A DNA stretch of 21,985 nucleotides from Spirogloea muscicola (Eukaryota > Streptophyta > Zygnematophyceae > Spirogloeales > Spirogloeaceae). The stretch is taken from the NCBI GenBank assembly GCA_009602725.1, contig WELB01000067.1:286334-308318 (forward strand). Direction: 5' to 3'. The position numbers and the translations under genes were made by a program. The notes beneath the pieces were generated by a model. The model had not been told where the DNA came from and did not search any database. It saw nothing but the letters and a program-made list of their open reading frames with translations. Numbering within the stretch: the first letter of the stretch is position 1; every line of letters starts with the position of its first letter. Of this stretch, positions 8,382 to 19,811 are shown piece after piece.

Positions 8382-10095
8382 CTTCCGAAGACGGCCCTTC
8401 TGGTCTTGAAAATGCAGCGAGAGTTCCTTGATGAGGGCGGTTTCGGTTCCCTGCTCGGGAACGACGTCTCGGCTGTCCGTGAAGTCGTCCCGCACGTGAA
8501 GACTCTCATTGTCAGTAGGCCGCCTGCTTGCTGAGAGAGTTCTCGTGCGAATGTAATATAGCAGACGTCATTGGTGTCATTCTGAATGCACAATGCGCTC
8601 TGGGGTCACTTGGCTTCTCACTGCCTTCTTATACCATCAAGTCATCCTGGCCAGTCCCTCTTCTAGACTCCTTCGTGAAGCGAAGTAGCTAGCTTTGATC
8701 GACATATAAGCTACTTCGTCTCTGTTGCACGACAGGCAACATGAGCATAGCATGTGAAATGACCAGCATCTGCTTACGATTGCAGGAAGCAGCCAGGAAG
8801 GCTGGCTTGGAGGTCATCCACACCAAGGAGGGCCACAAGCCCGACTTGAGCGATGTAGCAGCCTCCAAGCTCATTCGCACCAGGGAACGAAGTACAAATG
8901 GAATCACAATTGGCGATGAGGTGCAATGTCATGTGCATATATTGTAGTTGGGAGTAGCCTTCTGCTCAAGTGTCTGTCTTGATGCAGTTACTTCAGCAAC
9001 CACTGGCCACAGTTCCACACGTCAGAATCTGCCAGCGGTCGGAGGCAATAAACACTTGTAGTAGTAGTGCTACTTGAAAAAGCCACAGTCAGGACAGGTA
9101 TATTCACATTCTCCTGGCCTCTGATTTGCACACTGCAAATGTTCTTAGGGACCTCTTGGCCGTGTCTTGGTGCTTGGAGAACCAGGAAATGAGATTGTTG
9201 AGGAGTGCAAACCTGCAGATGGTGAGAAGGTGAGCATTACAGCTGAATGCAGCTATAAGTAAAATTCCTCTCCAGGGAAGGCCTGGTTCTGGAAAGCATG
9301 CGACGCAACACAAAGTACAGGATGCCCGCATGTGGAGCTTTTGGAGACGCCTCTCTTTGTTTACATGAGCACATTGTAGCATACCTCTCAACCTGATCTT
9401 GATATCATGCTTCTATACTGCAGATGAGGCCATCATAGTACTGACTTTGCTGTGTCCTGGTTTGGCTCTCTTGGTTTGCAGGTGTTCGTCACTTCAGCCA
9501 AGAGCGTCCTGTACAACTCTGGGTTGCACGAGTACCTCTTGTGCGTGATGTCATCCTTAATTAAGCTTGTGCTCTTAGTATGTGTGTTTGAAATATGAGC
9601 GTTCATGCTAGCTTGACCAAGGTCGTTGCTTGCTTGAGGTGGCTGTAGGAAGGAAGACATCACGCATCTGATATTGGCTGGGGTGACCACGGAGATTGGA
9701 GTCCAGCTGGTGATGCGGGAGCTCAATGATCGAGGCTTTGAGCCGTGCTTAGTTGAGGACTGCACGGCAAGTTACATTGACCAGTAAGTGCTTGACCTGC
9801 TAGGTTCCTGTCAACATCCTGAAGCAACAATGCCAGATCATGTACAAGCTGATACTTAATTTCGAGCGAAGCCAAGCACATACATGCATCATGTGTGCAA
9901 CCATGTGCAAGGACCAACTTGAAGCAGTGGCCGCCACTCACAGCAAGCTCATAGCATGCGTGTCACTCGTTGCAACTCTCGATCAGCTACAAGGAGGTAT
10001 CACTTGATATGATTATTGCGCAAGGTGGCATTATTGGCTGGACGTCAACCAATGAGGCCATACTGGCAGCCCTCACGTCTCCCACACCAGATAAG
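8382..10095 (+). other. Gene 1 domain 1: isochorismatase-like pseudoenzyme domain
   Basis: Six exons encode a full-length isochorismatase-like fold. Recognisable blocks in order: [11 protein letters not shown] (family normally I-D-M-Q), [70 protein letters not shown] and A-Q-G-G-I-I-G-W. The catalytic Asp is Lys (residue 10), the catalytic Lys is Thr (119) and the nucleophile Cys is Gly (152). The Thr-Gly spacing of 33 is the same as Lys-Cys in domain 2, so the substitutions are true replacements, not misalignment. No stop or frameshift occurs. It should fold but not catalyse; a regulatory, dimerising or binding role is inferred. Confidence 0.8.
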
Positions 10096-12749
10096 GTACA
10101 CAGAGACTTCTGCAATGTCATCATCCCTTACAATAGGAGCAGATGCAGAGAGTGCAACCTGACATCCAACAATTGCTGCCCATGCTATTTAGTCAAGCTG
10201 AAGCCTCACTTGAGCTACCAAGTATACCAACAGGTTGATTCATCAGAAGCATACGCTGACACTGTTTTGCATTCACCGTTATGTCTTTCACTCAGCTCCC
10301 AGAGAGGCCGTCCTGGATCAGCTCAGACGTGCCTACTGTGCTGAAGGCAGACCCTTGCTCGGAGCTCGTGCAAGTGTCCGCTGCCATGGACTCCTCGGCA
10401 GTCACTATTGCAGATGCAAAGCCGAGCCCCTTCACCTTCCCAGTGAGTCTCTTAAGAGAAGGCCAAGCAAGAACCTGTAAGTAAGCAGTTTGCATCAAGC
10501 GCAAAGCCCTCATCCTGAAGTTTTCAATAAGCAAGCTCGCCGTAGAGAGAAGGCGCGCAGAGCTCATGAAATGAAAGGAAGGCCAATTCAAGCCGAAGCA
10601 ACGCAATATGAAAGTGACACTGCCCTTCTAACTTTGTTGACATAGTTCTGCAGTTGGGGAGGACTGCGTGCATTGTCATTGACATGCAACGGGATTTCAT
10701 ACTGGAGGGAGGTTTTGGCTCAACCTTGGGCAACAACGTGAAGCTTCTACAGTCCATCGTGCCAACTGTTGCATGGCTTTTGGTGAGATGCTTAGGATGA
10801 TATTGGTTGTCACGGCTCACTACACGGATGTCACTTATTCTTTGTGGTCTCTCCCAAGGCATTCTCAAGTAGCACCCATGCACAGCCCTTCACGTCCGCA
10901 TCTGAGCTTAGGACACTGCTCCCCTGTGCACGCAGCAAATCTGCCGCGAGTATGGCATCCACCTGGTACATACACTCGAGGCTCATTCGCCAGACCTGAG
11001 TGACTGTCCATTAGCCAAGCTCACTCGAGGACAGCTTCCAGCAGGCCTCCGCATCGGCGACTCGGTGTTCAACTGACCCTGCCACTTGTCAAGCGAGCAG
11101 TCCTTTGCATTCAATTGCACACACCCATGTCAGATCAAGTCTTCCGAGCAACTCACGAATACGCATGCCATGCTACTCAGATGTACCTATCCTTGTGATT
11201 TGTTGTATCATCAGTTTGTATGCAGGAATTGCCAGATTGTAACAGCAGTGACCTATCCTCCATGCAGGGTGATATGGGTCGTATCTTGGTGCAAAGAGAG
11301 TGGGGCAACGAGATCCTGAATGACAATGCTCCACTGCCATCGGAGAAGGTCTGCTGTCATCTCTGCACATATGCTTGCATGGCATCTCATGGGAATCAAG
11401 GATTTCCAGCAGGCATTTCTCAAATATATGCAAGTGAGCAATCATCCATACCACACTGCAGGCCATGTTCAAGCCGGGGAAAGGAGCATTCTTCGGAACA
11501 GATCTACATCAATTCTTGAGGTAGTGTGAGTCAGCTTGTCATAGAACAGGTTATTGGCACTAGCAGCATGCACAGCTGCACTTGGACGTGTTCCATTCCG
11601 CATGCAGTGCAGAACGTACAGCCAGTGTACAGAAGCTGGTCCTTCAAATGCTGCTCCTCAAAGCTCTGCAAATGCCGCAGCAAGCCAAACATGTCAAAAT
11701 CGCGCGCAGAGAAAAAGGGGTCACGCACTTGCTTTTTGCGGGCGTGACTACGGAGGTCTGCGTACAAACAAGCATGAGGGAGGCCAATGACCGAGGTTAC
11801 CACTGCCTTATGGTGGAGGACTGCACAGAATCGTATTTTCCTCAGTTTAAGGCTGCAACACTGCAAATGCTCACAGATCAGGTTGATCTCCTTGCCAAGA
11901 GTACCTAGTGGGCTGCTAATCCACCATCCAGCAGCGGAGGCAATTACAGTCAGATGATATGCAGGTACCTATCAGTAATATGGTTGACCTGCTGATTGAC
12001 CACTTATTCTGTATGACCGTACGGCCTATGGCCCCTATCTCCTCTTGCAGGGCGCCATAGTAGGGTGGTCATCAACCTGTGAACAACTGCAGAAGGCTCT
12101 AGCGGTGGCTCAACCAGGAGTTGCATCTGCTCCCCTGCCAACTCTCTCAGGCGATTTTGAGGCCCCTCCGGCACCAACAGGTGAGTCCCTTAATGAATTA
12201 ATTTGGAAGTCGTTGGCTTCCTTGCTCATTCGTAGCAGAATTCACGTTGATTTTGGGAGCCAGGATCACTATCTCGATCATGGCTAGGCCACATGGTCGT
12301 CAGAAGCATACTTTTGGCAATGTCGTTGACTTTGCGTCTCTTTGCCTTTCTGCAGAGTCCTGATGAATGATTGTGACTATTACTGTTACTGAGATCTTCT
12401 TCCAGGAAGGGGTGCGGCTGTACATTTTCCTGGATCTACACCTTCGACCACCACAATGCCTGAATCAAGTCAAGATGGAGCTGAGCAAGCAGAGCAAGAG
12501 ATGCCTGCTTCCATTCGCATGGCCATTGAGCAAAAGGCGGCTGCCACAGCAGCCGGGCCGGATGCGGAAGTACGGGATCCTTCCTTCTTGGCGTGGGAGC
12601 AGCAGCCTAATGTAAGAGGTCCAGAGAAGCTGCCGCCTGTGTCAGAGAGGTCTCAGTCTGGCGCCTTCACGGATGTGCCACTTGGAGACAAGCCAGCTGC
12701 TGATGCGCCTGAGAAGGCGCCCTCGGCATGCAACTGCACCATGCTGTAG
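8382..12749 (+). CDS. Tandem isochorismatase-fold protein: pseudoenzyme domain, active domain, CaaX tail
   Basis: A multi-exon gene of about 612 residues plus a short uncertain N-terminus. Exons: 8382-8510, 8786-8920, 9149-9229, 9482-9540, 9649-9783, 9987-10095, 10296-10442, 10654-10782, 10936-11064, 11268-11348, 11462-11520, 11710-11881, 12051-12180 and 12406-12749. All introns are GT-AG and all phases agree. Numbering from the first residue of exon 8382, domain 1 is 1-216, linker 217-265, domain 2 266-475, tail 476-612. Both domains belong to the isochorismatase-like cysteine hydrolase family (hydrolysis of amide or ureido C-N bonds with an Asp-Lys-Cys triad). Domain 2 has D275, K382 and C415; domain 1 has K, T and G in those places. 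The tail is low-complexity and ends C-T-M-L. Start: either a first exon at 8055-8114 (ATG 8055, donor GTGACC) spliced to 8382, as the matching intron before domain 2 suggests, or ATG 8376 read straight through. The substrate is unknown; neighbours suggest a ureido compound. Confidence 0.85.
10296..10442 (+). other. Gene 1 interdomain linker exon
   Basis: One 49-codon exon joins the two hydrolase domains. Its first part is Ser/Pro-rich without a known motif. Its last part ([14 protein letters not shown]) looks like the short N-terminal extension that precedes the first beta strand in bacterial single-domain relatives. This supports an origin of the gene by tandem duplication of a complete single-domain coding unit. 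Confidence 0.65.
10654..12113 (+). other. Gene 1 domain 2: active isochorismatase-like hydrolase domain
   Basis: Exons 10654-10782, 10936-11064, 11268-11348, 11462-11520, 11710-11881 and the start of 12051-12180. Blocks: [10 protein letters not shown] (catalytic Asp), [34 protein letters not shown] (catalytic Lys is the first K), [11 protein letters not shown] (nucleophile Cys), [17 protein letters not shown] and D-Q-G-A-I-V-G-W. Lys-Cys spacing is 33, and Cys to the Gln of D-Q-G is 40, both equal to those in gene 2. Exon lengths 129, 81 and 59 match domain 1 exactly. Family knowledge allows an amidase acting on a small ureido or carbamoyl substrate; the exact substrate cannot be read. Confidence 0.85.
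12406..12749 (+). other. Gene 1 C-terminal tail with CaaX-type end
   Basis: The last exon encodes about 114 residues rich in Ala, Glu, Pro, Gln and Ser with no predicted domain, including one charged stretch ([14 protein letters not shown]). It ends A-C-N-C-T-M-L-stop. The last four residues fit a CaaX box. Leu in the last place is the usual preference for geranylgeranyltransferase I. A second Cys two residues upstream could be palmitoylated. Bacterial relatives of the hydrolase domain end soon after the G-W motif, so this tail is an addition. Phase was checked: the previous exon ends with one base of a Gly codon. Confidence 0.7.
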
Positions 12750-16638: not shown

Positions 16639-17600
16639 ATGGTGCTTCTTGTTGTCAACGGGACACTGATGCGTGGGCTGGCGCTCAATGCCAACCTGAC
16701 TGACGTGAGCGCGAGCTTTGTGAGGTGGGTGCATGTCACCTCCGCTCAGAAGCCTAGACTAGGCCAGCCGCTGGAGGATATGTAACCTGTTGCTTTGGCA
16801 GACTGGCATTGTCCAACTTGCTCTAGTCAATGCAGCACTCACCCAGCTAGTGGGCAACAGCCAAGTGCTCGTGATCCTGCAAGGGCTCGGGCAGAGCTGA
16901 AAAGCTCTTAGTGAGGCAGCCCGAGCGCCCAAAGAGCAATGGGCTTCCAATAGCCCACTATTGCTGAACATTGTCAGTGGTAGCAATGCTGAGGAGACTT
17001 TTATCCCGGAATGTTTGGGAGGGTATGGTAGCTTGACAGACTTCTAAGATGACAGGGAGGCGGAGACGGCAGGGTGCTACAAGCTCTTCTCGATAAGTGG
17101 CAAGTATCCGGGGATGATCAGAGCTAGCTGCAATGAGGGCGGCAAGGTTGCAGTTGAGGTACTTCAGCATGTCAGCTGTACCCTTCTAGAAGGTCAACAA
17201 AAGTTGTGGCTACTTCAAGCAGACCTTCGAAAGCTCCTACAGAGATTGCTTGGCCATGCTCACCGACCTCATCTGTCAGCCAAATTACTGACCAGATTGC
17301 TGATGTTGTCACTTGCTTCAAGGTCTGGGAAGTCAGTGGCGATGGTCTGACTTCCATCCTCCAGAAAGAACCTCCAGGCCTGACCATAGGCAAGGTGGAG
17401 CTTTCAACTGGAGAGGAAGTCCTGGGAGTACTTGCAGAGCCCTATGCACTTGAGGTATACTCAGACCTGCTATTTGTCGCACATGATATTAGAGCCGGTC
17501 GCTTGATTTCATGCTCCAAACCACATATTCTGGCATGTATTGTGGACAGGGCATGGAGGAGATCACCTCGTACAAGGGGTGGAAGTCCTATCTATCATCA
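16639..17600 (+). other. Gene 2 N-terminal GGCT-like / allophanate hydrolase C-domain
   Basis: Encoded by exons 1-3 and the first part of exon 4. [13 protein letters not shown] corresponds to the substrate-loop motif of the gamma-glutamylcyclotransferase fold. The splice of exon 1 to exon 2 rebuilds [16 protein letters not shown], matching the family's R-E-A-R-T-A-P-x-Y-R-L pattern. Y-P-G-M-I-R and V-A-V-E-V-W-E-V follow. Stand-alone bacterial versions of this domain exist, and the domain also forms the C-terminus of allophanate hydrolase. It may be a second catalytic step or a binding domain. Confidence 0.75.
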
Positions 17601-19811
17601 CAGTCGAGTGTCACGACCAACGGGAACCATACCATGGCTCACGATCAGCTCAAAGTCAAGGGCGAACCTTACAACTGGCCATTTGATGGAGACCTTCGAC
17701 CTCAAAATACAGTGAGCCGCCTGCTTGTGCCCATGCGCTCCACAGTGTCCGAAGGAGCCAGACAGCTGCAGCATGATGTAATCAAGCTGACACTTGCATG
17801 CTTGAACCTTGAACCTGGTCAATGGCGGCAGGTCTTCCTTATTATAGATATGCAGACAGACTTTTGCGGGGTTGGCGGCTATGTAGACAGCATGGGATAT
17901 GATCTCAAGCTAACACAGGTCAGTGCTTGCTTGCTTGAGAGTTTCTAATCAGAGCATCAGAGAAATGCTCTTGTGGTTGCACTCTGGTCAGCATTGAATC
18001 AGCTTGGCACAGTGCGTGGTGGTATGCTCAAGTTATACAGTGTGCTTCTCACCAGGCAACGTCAAGAAGTAGCTGACTTCCTACATTCTGTGGCCAGGCC
18101 CCCATTGAGCCAATCAAGAAGGTGCTGGACGAGTGCAGGAGGCTTGGTTACCATGTGATGCACACACGAGAAGGCCACCGCCCTGACCTCAGCGACCTTC
18201 CTGCTAACAAGGTTGCCACTTAGAACAACTTTGGTAACTAGCAATTGTGAATGCCAAGCACCCAAGACGACTATGGCCTTGCTTTAGCGGCACAACTGAA
18301 TGGACATGCTGACTGTAAGTTGGTGTTTTGGTCTTATCAGTCCACCTTCTAAACTGATATGCGAACAAGTCCGAGGAACTGCATACTATGGGAGTTCTCT
18401 CCTTGATCCTGAATACTTTGGTCTGGAACTTAAGTAAACATGTGCCATGTCTTTCAGTTCTGGAGGTCAGAGAAGATCGGAGCTGGAATTGGCACAAAAG
18501 GCCCTGCTGGTCGCATCCTGGTACAACACATCCTATTATAATGTGCACAGCTGGACCATTTGCAATGTCACCGAGTGCAGTTGTCTGCATATATTTATCA
18601 TCTCAGCTCACTTTCACTTCAGCAGCAGCCTAAGCCCCTGCTTGCAAGGATGTGGAAGGCACCATGAGTCAATGCTCCCTTGAGCTGAGGGCACAGGTAC
18701 GCGGAGAGAAAGGCTGGGACATCATACCTGAGCTATACCCCATTGAGGGAGAGGCTATCATTGAGAAGCCTGGCAAGGTAGATTGGATTTTTTCTGAAGA
18801 TGCCCCCTTTCAAGTAGGGAGCACCTAGGACAAAATGTGATGTCTTTCATTGTCTCTCATAGCTTGTATTGCAAGCTCCGGGAAGCAGCATATCAGACAG
18901 ACTACTGTCAATGCATAGTTGAACTTCTCTTTGTTTCCTGCTCACACAAATTGATTGCTTATGTTGCACCTGGCCTTGCGTGCAGGGCTCGTTTTATGCA
19001 ACGGACCTGGAGATGTTGCTACATCTGAAGTAAGATGTAGTACATGTCTTGATATTTGTGAGCTTCCCTGACAACCAGCTTGTCACACTGGCAATAAACA
19101 GGGTTCTCATCTTGACAACCGCTTGTTGCTTAGGGTTCCCATCTTGACAACCGCTTGTTGCTTGCTTTCTCATGTGCACAGGGGCATCAGAAACATTGTT
19201 CTAGCTGGCATCACCACTGATGTTTGTGTGCACACTACGATGCGTGATGCCAATGACAGGGGGTATGTAGGCAAAATGCACAAGAAGACTAGACTTCATC
19301 GGTTGCTTGATAGTACCAGCTTGATTTGTATGCGTATACAGTGGTCATGTGCTTACAGTCCCATGTCTGATTGAATGGAGATTTAAGACATCAGAAATGG
19401 TGCGTGGAAGCAGGGTAGCCTGCTAAGAGGTGTCCAAGAGGTGGCGAGTGGTCTTGCAGGTTCGAATGCCTGCTGCTTTCAGACTGCACAGGGGCTACAG
19501 ACCACAACAACCATCTGGCAGCCCTTAATATGGTTAAGATGCAGGTGCCTCCCTGTGACTGTATGGCAGCACTTGCTGGCTGATATTCTTCTCACTTCAA
19601 TGTGGCACTACCGCCAAGTGCGTCAAGTTTCTGTGTTCTAGCTTCTACACGGTATGGCTTGTTGTTGCATACATTCTCATGAGTATGCAATTGTGGCTGC
19701 CACGCGGCACAGGGAGGTGTGTTTGGCTCTGTCTCCAGCGGGTCTGAATTCCTAAGAGCCATCACTGCAATCGCCATGAGCTCTGATGGTGGATCTGCTA
19801 AATCCCACTGA
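16639..19811 (+). CDS. Allophanate hydrolase C-terminal-like domain fused to biuret-hydrolase-like domain
   Basis: Twelve exons, 378 residues: 16639-16724, 17056-17158, 17323-17454, 17550-17711, 17832-17918, 18098-18211, 18458-18520, 18697-18777, 18986-19029, 19182-19262, 19460-19544 and 19713-19811. All introns are GT-AG and all phases agree. ATG 16639 is the first after an in-frame TAG and sits in a strong context (GCAATGG). Residues 1-125 form a gamma-glutamylcyclotransferase-like domain related to the allophanate hydrolase C-terminus: V-N-G-T-L-M-R-G at the start, [10 protein letters not shown], then [11 protein letters not shown]. Residues 143-378 form an isochorismatase-like amidohydrolase with D167, K273 and C306. 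Spacings of 106 and 33, plus 40 from Cys to the Gln of K-M-Q-G-G, equal those reported for Rhizobium BiuH (D36, K142, C175, Q215). Likely reaction: biuret to allophanate and ammonia; a related ureido substrate is possible. Known allophanate hydrolase C-terminal domains act on N-carboxycarbamate. No amidase domain is present. No targeting peptide is evident, so it is probably cytosolic. Confidence 0.88.
17601..19811 (+). other. Gene 2 C-terminal biuret-hydrolase-like domain
   Basis: Blocks in order: [17 protein letters not shown] (a family N-terminal signature), [99 protein letters not shown], and [11 protein letters not shown]. These match the BiuH type rather than the type seen in gene 1. 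All active-site residues are present. The reading frame is clean across nine exons, so the gene is probably functional. Confidence 0.85.
19101..19164 (+). repeat. 32-bp tandem duplication inside gene 2 intron 9
   Basis: Two copies of GGGTTCYCATCTTGACAACC followed by GCTTGTTGCTT (19101-19132, 19133-19164), with one visible difference within the shared core. They end 17 nt before the exon that carries the catalytic Cys, close to its acceptor. Confidence 0.8.

Follow-up and report, generated by a model that had tools for sequence, protein, structure and literature searches.

What does a eukaryotic protein do that joins a domain of the AH_C family to a biuret hydrolase (BiuH) in one chain? The question is raised by a gene in a 21,985-nucleotide stretch of the Spirogloea muscicola genome (contig WELB01000067.1, positions 286,334 to 308,318, or G000:C67:286334-308318 in our numbering; the genome has 153 Mb in 471 contigs), hereafter the window. 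The gene lies at 16639-19811 on the forward strand: its 12 exons, with GT...AG intron borders, give one frame of 378 amino acids (aa) running from an ATG at 16639 to a stop codon whose last base is 19811, with AH_C at residues 3-122 and BiuH at residues 143-366. We propose, at somewhat less than even confidence, that the fusion is a bifunctional enzyme, in which BiuH makes allophanate and AH_C would decarboxylate allophanate to urea and CO2.

Splice sites and domain matches gave a first gene model, which was then refined against a second genomic copy (L001, on G000:C196). Pfam AH_C (PF21986) matches residues 3-122 well above its gathering cut-off (125.4 vs 27 bits), and Pfam Isochorismatase matches residues 161-350 with 138.4 bits. 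The second copy is ~86% identical to the window copy over 4.2 kb (introns included), has identical lengths for all 12 exons and is open throughout, with no stops. The ratio of nonsynonymous to synonymous substitution rates (dN/dS, by NG86) between the copies is ~0.18 overall (dN 0.025, dS 0.135) and varies along the chain: 0.39 for AH_C (residues 1-119; 0.054/0.138), 0.18 for the linker (residues 120-148; 0.030/0.167) and 0.07 for BiuH (the rest of the chain; 0.009/0.129). An earlier, sequence-only reading of the window had claimed that one gene joins the two domains, that a single exon encodes the end of the first, a linker and the start of the second, and that the fusion is not a gene-prediction error. 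All of this holds: the 12 exons form one frame in which both Pfam domains are matched, the fourth exon carries parts of both, and the second copy, with its dN/dS, argues against an error. The AH_C–BiuH fusion is one real and intact gene.

For the BiuH half, the fusion passes the NCBIfam equivalog cut-off (NF050097; 392.4 vs 370 bits), and its residues 140-366 match the R. leguminosarum enzyme (6azo) with 381 bits. All 18 mapped active-site positions are identical, including Asp36, Lys142, Lys145, Cys175 and Gln215; in the parts of PMC5806882 that we consulted, from which the mapped active-site and biuret-contact residues were taken, Asp36, Lys142 and Cys175 form the catalytic triad, and Lys145 and Gln215 bind the substrate. 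The BiuH half is thus predicted to split biuret by hydrolysis into allophanate and ammonia via this Asp-Lys-Cys triad. A tree of 98 rows places it within a clade of 36 rows (support 98/89, with the bootstrap not yet fully settled) that includes 14 cyanobacterial, eight verrucomicrobial, three Pseudomonadota and one Acidobacteriota rows among others, and 14 rows similar to TrtA (triuret hydrolase) form a group of their own (100/100).

The AH_C half belongs, judged by its sequence, to a class of standalone proteins and not to the allophanate-hydrolase type. We aligned the two genomic copies with rows of bacterial standalone proteins (10) and of allophanate hydrolases (11), and two classes can be told apart: most standalone rows have the motifs NGTLMRG and EP.GL, and the others have [VC]G.H..G and mostly [IV]P.PL. 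Both NGTLMRG and EPPGL are intact in the two fusion copies. The column of the histidine at chain position 492 of the K. lactis urea amidolyase (5i8i), which we take to be a catalytic residue of the allophanate-hydrolase C-domain, holds Leu10 in the fusion, and Glu79 of the fusion occupies a Val/Ile column of those C-domains. The fusion AH_C shares 45-60% identity with the standalone class vs 31-41% with the allophanate-hydrolase type; among solved structures it is closest to 5c5z, a standalone E. coli protein (110.6 bits), with allophanate-hydrolase C-domains at 40-50 bits. A tree of 45 AH_C rows places 26 standalone rows and the two fusion copies apart from 16 allophanate-hydrolase rows (100/99); one piece that ends at a contig edge falls with the latter, and among the standalone rows L066 is divergent and sits on a long branch. 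The sequence-only reading had also noted that the amidase half is missing, in agreement with our search: the allophanate hydrolase model TIGR02713 (AtzF) scores 98 bits against a cut-off of 511, matches only at model positions 439-562, and no amidase domain is found.

An AlphaFold model of a bacterial member of the class (L027; predicted local distance difference test, pLDDT, 94) matches 5c5z with a Z of 23.9, the K. lactis allophanate hydrolase 4iss with a VIA-align Z of 22.3 (root-mean-square deviation, rmsd, 1.3; 130 aligned) and gamma-glutamylamine cyclotransferase (GGACT; 1vkb) with a Z of 14.8 (rmsd 2.1; 124 aligned). Judged on this bacterial model, the GGACT fold appears to be common to the standalone class. 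Glu79 is a candidate equivalent of the GGACT catalytic Glu; the alignment to E. coli YtfP ended before reaching this residue.

Where do standalone AH_C proteins occur? We examined the BiuH loci of the best 80 of 587 candidate bacterial relatives, with flanks of up to 6 kb. AH_C is found inside 31 of these loci: 13 standalone, 17 within long open reading frames (ORFs) of the allophanate-hydrolase type and one at a contig end. In five loci (L005, L027, L028, L050 and L092, several of them cyanobacterial) biuH is immediately preceded by a standalone AH_C gene of the same orientation. None of 46 AH_C rows (three are duplicates) extends more than 100 aa downstream, and therefore no bacterial fusion was seen among them, consistent with the sequence-only view that the two are separate proteins in bacteria. 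In the genome survey L092 appeared to be a fusion, but an in-frame TAG separates its two genes. One plasmid record covers at least 80% of the fusion query in one place and possibly holds a fusion or an adjacent gene pair; a single scan for viral carriers gave two pattern matches and no relative.

The co-occurrence of the two genes is also seen at the level of genomes. In a survey of 292 cyanobacterial genomes (up to six candidates scored per genome), strong BiuH matches (226 bits or more) were found in 11, with 68-76% identity. Ten of these 11 have a standalone AH_C (in pieces in G235) vs one of the other 281 (Fisher 1e-16, relatedness not corrected). We searched 24 genomes with TIGR02713, namely 21 with standalone AH_C and three comparison genomes preselected for AH_C in long ORFs; four more genomes with standalone AH_C lay outside this search (G004, G016, G235 and G253; 25 are known in all). 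No allophanate hydrolase exceeded the cut-off in any of the 21, and all three comparison genomes have one (729-784 bits); best scores for the amidase region in the 21 were 25-234 bits, vs 729-784 for true allophanate hydrolases. A full allophanate hydrolase and a standalone AH_C were never seen together in the genomes compared. Among 387 genomes of the verrucomicrobial phylum (E-values up to 1e-12), seven have strong BiuH: one with standalone AH_C, five with AH_C in an ORF of 582-736 aa and one with neither, so that none of the seven has both forms. Within Verrucomicrobia, none of six standalone-AH_C genomes (G003, G007, G008, G011, G012 and G015) has an allophanate hydrolase over the cut-off. 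The five genomes just given with AH_C in an ORF of 582-736 aa, assigned to the AtzF type from ORF length only, are five of the six other BiuH genomes of that search (Fisher 0.008, uncorrected for relatedness; the six standalone genomes had been picked for carrying that form). Urease was found in all 21 standalone-AH_C genomes and in all 25 genomes searched, and no more than 12 kb separate it from AH_C in three of the former (G007, G008 and G012).

These distributions suggest a step for the AH_C class. Most simply, it would be an allophanate decarboxylase, because allophanate hydrolase was undetected in the 21 genomes of the class and because allophanate is an N-carboxylate; the allophanate-hydrolase C-domain is reported to decarboxylate its own substrate, likewise an N-carboxylate. 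One cyanobacterium (G009) has BiuH and AH_C and no TrtA-like match, which suggests that the shared substrate is the product of BiuH and not that of TrtA. The fusion would have formed by joining an AH_C of the standalone class to biuH, two genes found next to each other in certain bacterial biuret/triuret loci. A TrtA-like neighbour in the window would supply biuret from triuret, BiuH would release allophanate and ammonia, and AH_C, receiving allophanate (urea N-carboxylate) by hand-over from the other half, would turn it into urea and CO2. The net reaction would be biuret + H2O -> urea + CO2 + NH3, and the urea would pass to urease, which the host genome encodes.

A broader reading goes further, and we hold it a little more tentatively: standalone AH_C would be a hitherto unnoticed allophanate decarboxylase, standing in for allophanate hydrolase in bacteria that have urease, and the eukaryote would have acquired a trtA/AH_C/biuH set, fused AH_C to BiuH and kept a ureide-use cluster beside a nucleobase-type permease.

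In the host, urease alpha is encoded at three places (C9:149831, C137:202741 and C67:548176 of G000), and genome-wide no AH_C match was found besides the two fusion copies (six out of six candidates scored). The best allophanate-hydrolase exon match has 68.8 bits (all 29 candidates scored); matched as a general amidase, this exon reaches 103.7 bits. It is at most likely that the host is without allophanate hydrolase. One of the urease alpha places is on the window's own contig, ~240 kb away.

Several observations speak against an allophanate decarboxylase. In 49 of the 80 bacterial BiuH loci no AH_C was found in the stretch covered. One cyanobacterium (G253) has standalone AH_C and no BiuH, and another (G080) has BiuH and a second hydrolase but no more than a weak AH_C (36%). 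In Pusillibacter (L115, 7992-9216) the gene immediately after a standalone AH_C encodes a carbon-nitrogen hydrolase and not BiuH, so that the class may act in other pathways as well. Urease does not discriminate, because it is common in cyanobacteria (123 out of 292 genomes) and lies near AH_C in AtzF genomes (G019 and G020) as well as in standalone ones; we set it aside as a diagnostic of standalone AH_C. The absence of allophanate hydrolase and urea carboxylase from the host counts for little, because whole-protein cut-offs are unreachable exon by exon; there are 33 matches to generic amidase exons, and the urea-carboxylase matches (31 out of 88 candidates scored) are all at model positions 1-351 of 1201, a region shared with other biotin carboxylases. 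In the literature searched, we found neither an allophanate decarboxylase nor an AH_C–BiuH fusion, and allophanate could lose CO2 spontaneously, making an enzyme unnecessary. Finally, of 28 AH_C columns that are invariant in 25 bacterial members of the class, the window copy departs at three (R to K38, D to G44 and R to K119) and the second copy at one. The AH_C of the window allele may be weakening, because of these three changes and because of its dN/dS of 0.39 vs 0.07 in BiuH.

The main rival places AH_C one step earlier, as a carboxybiuret decarboxylase between TrtA and BiuH (triuret -> carboxybiuret -> biuret -> allophanate). We consider it unlikely, although a TrtA-like gene adjoins the fusion, carboxybiuret is likewise an N-carboxylate, and AH_C directly follows a TrtA-like gene in one bacterial locus (L049, where the hydrolase is closest to TrtA) and a second BiuH-family hydrolase gene in another (L078). 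According to the part of PMC7948467 available to us, carboxybiuret decarboxylates by itself with a half-life of ~20 min. Three points speak against this rival: a small cupin gene in three loci (L028, L032 and L049) is a candidate for TrtB, the known decarboxylase; one cyanobacterium (G009) has BiuH and AH_C but no TrtA-like match; and standalone AH_C was not seen in genomes with a full allophanate hydrolase, so both seem to share the allophanate step.

A non-catalytic AH_C, kept for stability or oligomerisation or as a relic while allophanate decays to urea unaided, is to our minds just as doubtful. The weaker constraint on AH_C than on BiuH would fit it, as would the loss, confined to the window copy, of two class-invariant residues, but 25 of the 28 class-invariant residues are kept in the window copy and 27 in the other, and AH_C is retained as a separate gene near biuH across distant phyla.

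Less probable again is the role that the sequence-only reading had implied, in which AH_C acts after deamination as in allophanate hydrolase, here on N-carboxycarbamate from a separate amidase. In its favour, the Pfam family and the fold are those of the K. lactis allophanate-hydrolase C-domain, the host has generic amidase exons, and a gatA-like amidohydrolase is proposed in place of AtzF for nitrifying archaea in the part of PMC12625717 that we saw. This role is probably wrong, as the His492 column holds Leu, NGTLMRG and EPPGL stand in place of GAHL.G and [IV]P.PL, and the 21 genomes of the class have neither a TIGR02713 match over the cut-off nor an amidase region scoring near those of true allophanate hydrolases. 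The same reading's suggestion that the AH_C–BiuH pair marks a new step or substrate gains support.

That the fusion is an artefact of gene prediction or a pseudogene is very improbable: the sole point for it is an internal ATG in a good context at 17634 (possibly a relic or an alternative start), and against it stand the 12-exon open frame common to two genomic copies, their dN/dS and an exon that encodes both domains.

The coordinates of the fusion exons and of the neighbouring gene are given in Table 1.

Table 1. Positions in the window of the exons of the AH_C–BiuH fusion gene and of the two TrtA-like domains
Feature	Position	Strand	Remark
Fusion exon 1	16639..16724	+	AH_C start
Fusion exon 2	17056..17158	+	AH_C
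Fusion exon 3	17323..17454	+	AH_C
Fusion exon 4	17550..17711	+	AH_C end, linker and BiuH start; domain-joining exon; same 162 nt in L001
Internal in-frame ATG (Met136)	17634..17636	+	Strong ACCATGG context, where the BiuH part begins
Fusion exon 5	17832..17918	+	BiuH; catalytic Asp167 (BiuH Asp36)
Fusion exon 6	18098..18211	+	BiuH
Fusion exon 7	18458..18520	+	BiuH
Fusion exon 8	18697..18777	+	BiuH; catalytic Lys273 (BiuH Lys142)
Fusion exon 9	18986..19029	+	BiuH
Fusion exon 10	19182..19262	+	BiuH; nucleophile Cys306 (BiuH Cys175)
Fusion exon 11	19460..19544	+	BiuH; last residue Gln346 (BiuH Gln215)
Fusion exon 12 and stop	19713..19811	+	
TrtA-like domain 1	8385..10095	+	Exon pieces 8385-8510, 8786-8920, 9149-9229, 9482-9539, 9649-9784, 9984-10095
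TrtA-like domain 2	10654..12180	+	Exon pieces 10654-10782, 10939-11064, 11268-11348, 11462-11520, 11709-11881, 12051-12180

Upstream of the fusion and on the same strand, the window has a tandem TrtA-like gene with two domains. Domain 2 has an intact Asp-Lys-Cys triad and scores 264 bits to 6xix vs 164 to the best biuret hydrolase chain. Domain 1 is also closer to TrtA than to biuret hydrolase (203 vs 155 bits), and in both genomic copies the Asp of its triad is replaced by Lys and the Cys by Gly. With dN/dS values between the copies of 0.12 (domain 1) and 0.06 (domain 2), domain 1 appears to be still under selection despite the lost Asp and Cys, and the protein may form a dimer within one chain, one half of it inactive.

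Some 4.8 kb beyond the end of the window, again on the same strand, there is an exon of the Xan_ur_permease family (L130 4774-5382 on G000:C67; 40.3 vs 27 bits), which puts three candidate ureide genes in a row; more permease exons are likely before it, judged by eye only. A stretch matching the permease region also follows the second fusion copy, with ~86% identity. The second set of loci (L001, L004, L127 and L132; ~86% identical) is split over two contigs: C9 has the TrtA-like gene and then a run of N, and C196 has a run of N followed by the fusion and the permease stretch. It looks like one diverged haplotype or homeologue interrupted by a gap. With three bacterial cupins as queries, neither the window nor the 10 kb that follow it (a stretch with 1511 N) gave a TrtB-like match at E-values up to 1; the 10 kb upstream of the window are all N, so that the search is uninformative there.

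Some cyanobacteria encode a weaker second AH_C-like small protein (93-101 bits; G010:C84, G001:C216, G018:C11, G017:C120 and G006:C362). Among 72,556 plasmid records, 368 match the AH_C half, either standalone or inside allophanate hydrolase, and many enterobacterial plasmids (Escherichia, Salmonella, Klebsiella and others) are among those with matches. Most of the 30 plasmid matches listed are labelled as hypothetical protein or glutamyl-tRNA amidotransferase.

Both biuret and triuret occur as impurities of fertilisers, and triuret also arises by urate oxidation. In those parts of the papers that we consulted, bacteria are described as degrading the two compounds, and the same is proposed of archaea; linkage of triuret- and biuret-hydrolase genes in a eukaryote would bring another domain of life into the pathway, and the fusion with its TrtA-like neighbour suggests a eukaryotic route from triuret/biuret to urea. 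The fusion also points toward the role of standalone AH_C proteins. If these decarboxylate allophanate, a step of nitrogen catabolism gains an enzyme, and the route from biuret to urea would be free of an amidase. BiuH, TrtA and the AH_C family are already known. New within the literature searched (eukaryotic databases were outside its scope) are the single-chain AH_C–BiuH, a TrtA-like neighbour in a eukaryote and two AH_C classes with a presumably distinct reaction; the fusion may be annotated elsewhere.

Four known systems are close to this locus. c4763 of uropathogenic E. coli (PDB 5C5Z) has NGTLMRG and EP.GL in common with the fusion AH_C but is a separate small standalone protein; a role of c4763 in urea breakdown is mentioned in the part of a citing paper (PMC7558591) that we saw. 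The C-domain of allophanate hydrolase (AtzF; K. lactis 4ISS/5I8I) is of the same Pfam family and, from the modelled bacterial class member, the same fold; the fusion, in contrast, has Leu in the His492 column, Glu79 for Val/Ile and no amidase domain. R. leguminosarum BiuH (PDB 6AZO/6AZQ) aligns with fusion residues 140-366 and is the same at the 18 active-site positions, but it is without AH_C, whereas the host's BiuH makes up the C-terminal half of a protein encoded by a eukaryotic multi-exon gene. The TrtA/BiuH operons with bmpA-nupABC, trtB and atzF, as described in the portions of PMC12625717 and PMC7948467 that we consulted, have the same hydrolases, and genes for bmpA-type transporters are present in three cyanobacterial loci (L005, L028 and L049); the cyanobacterial loci, however, have a standalone AH_C, with no atzF found in them, and in the eukaryote a single chain holds both AH_C and BiuH.

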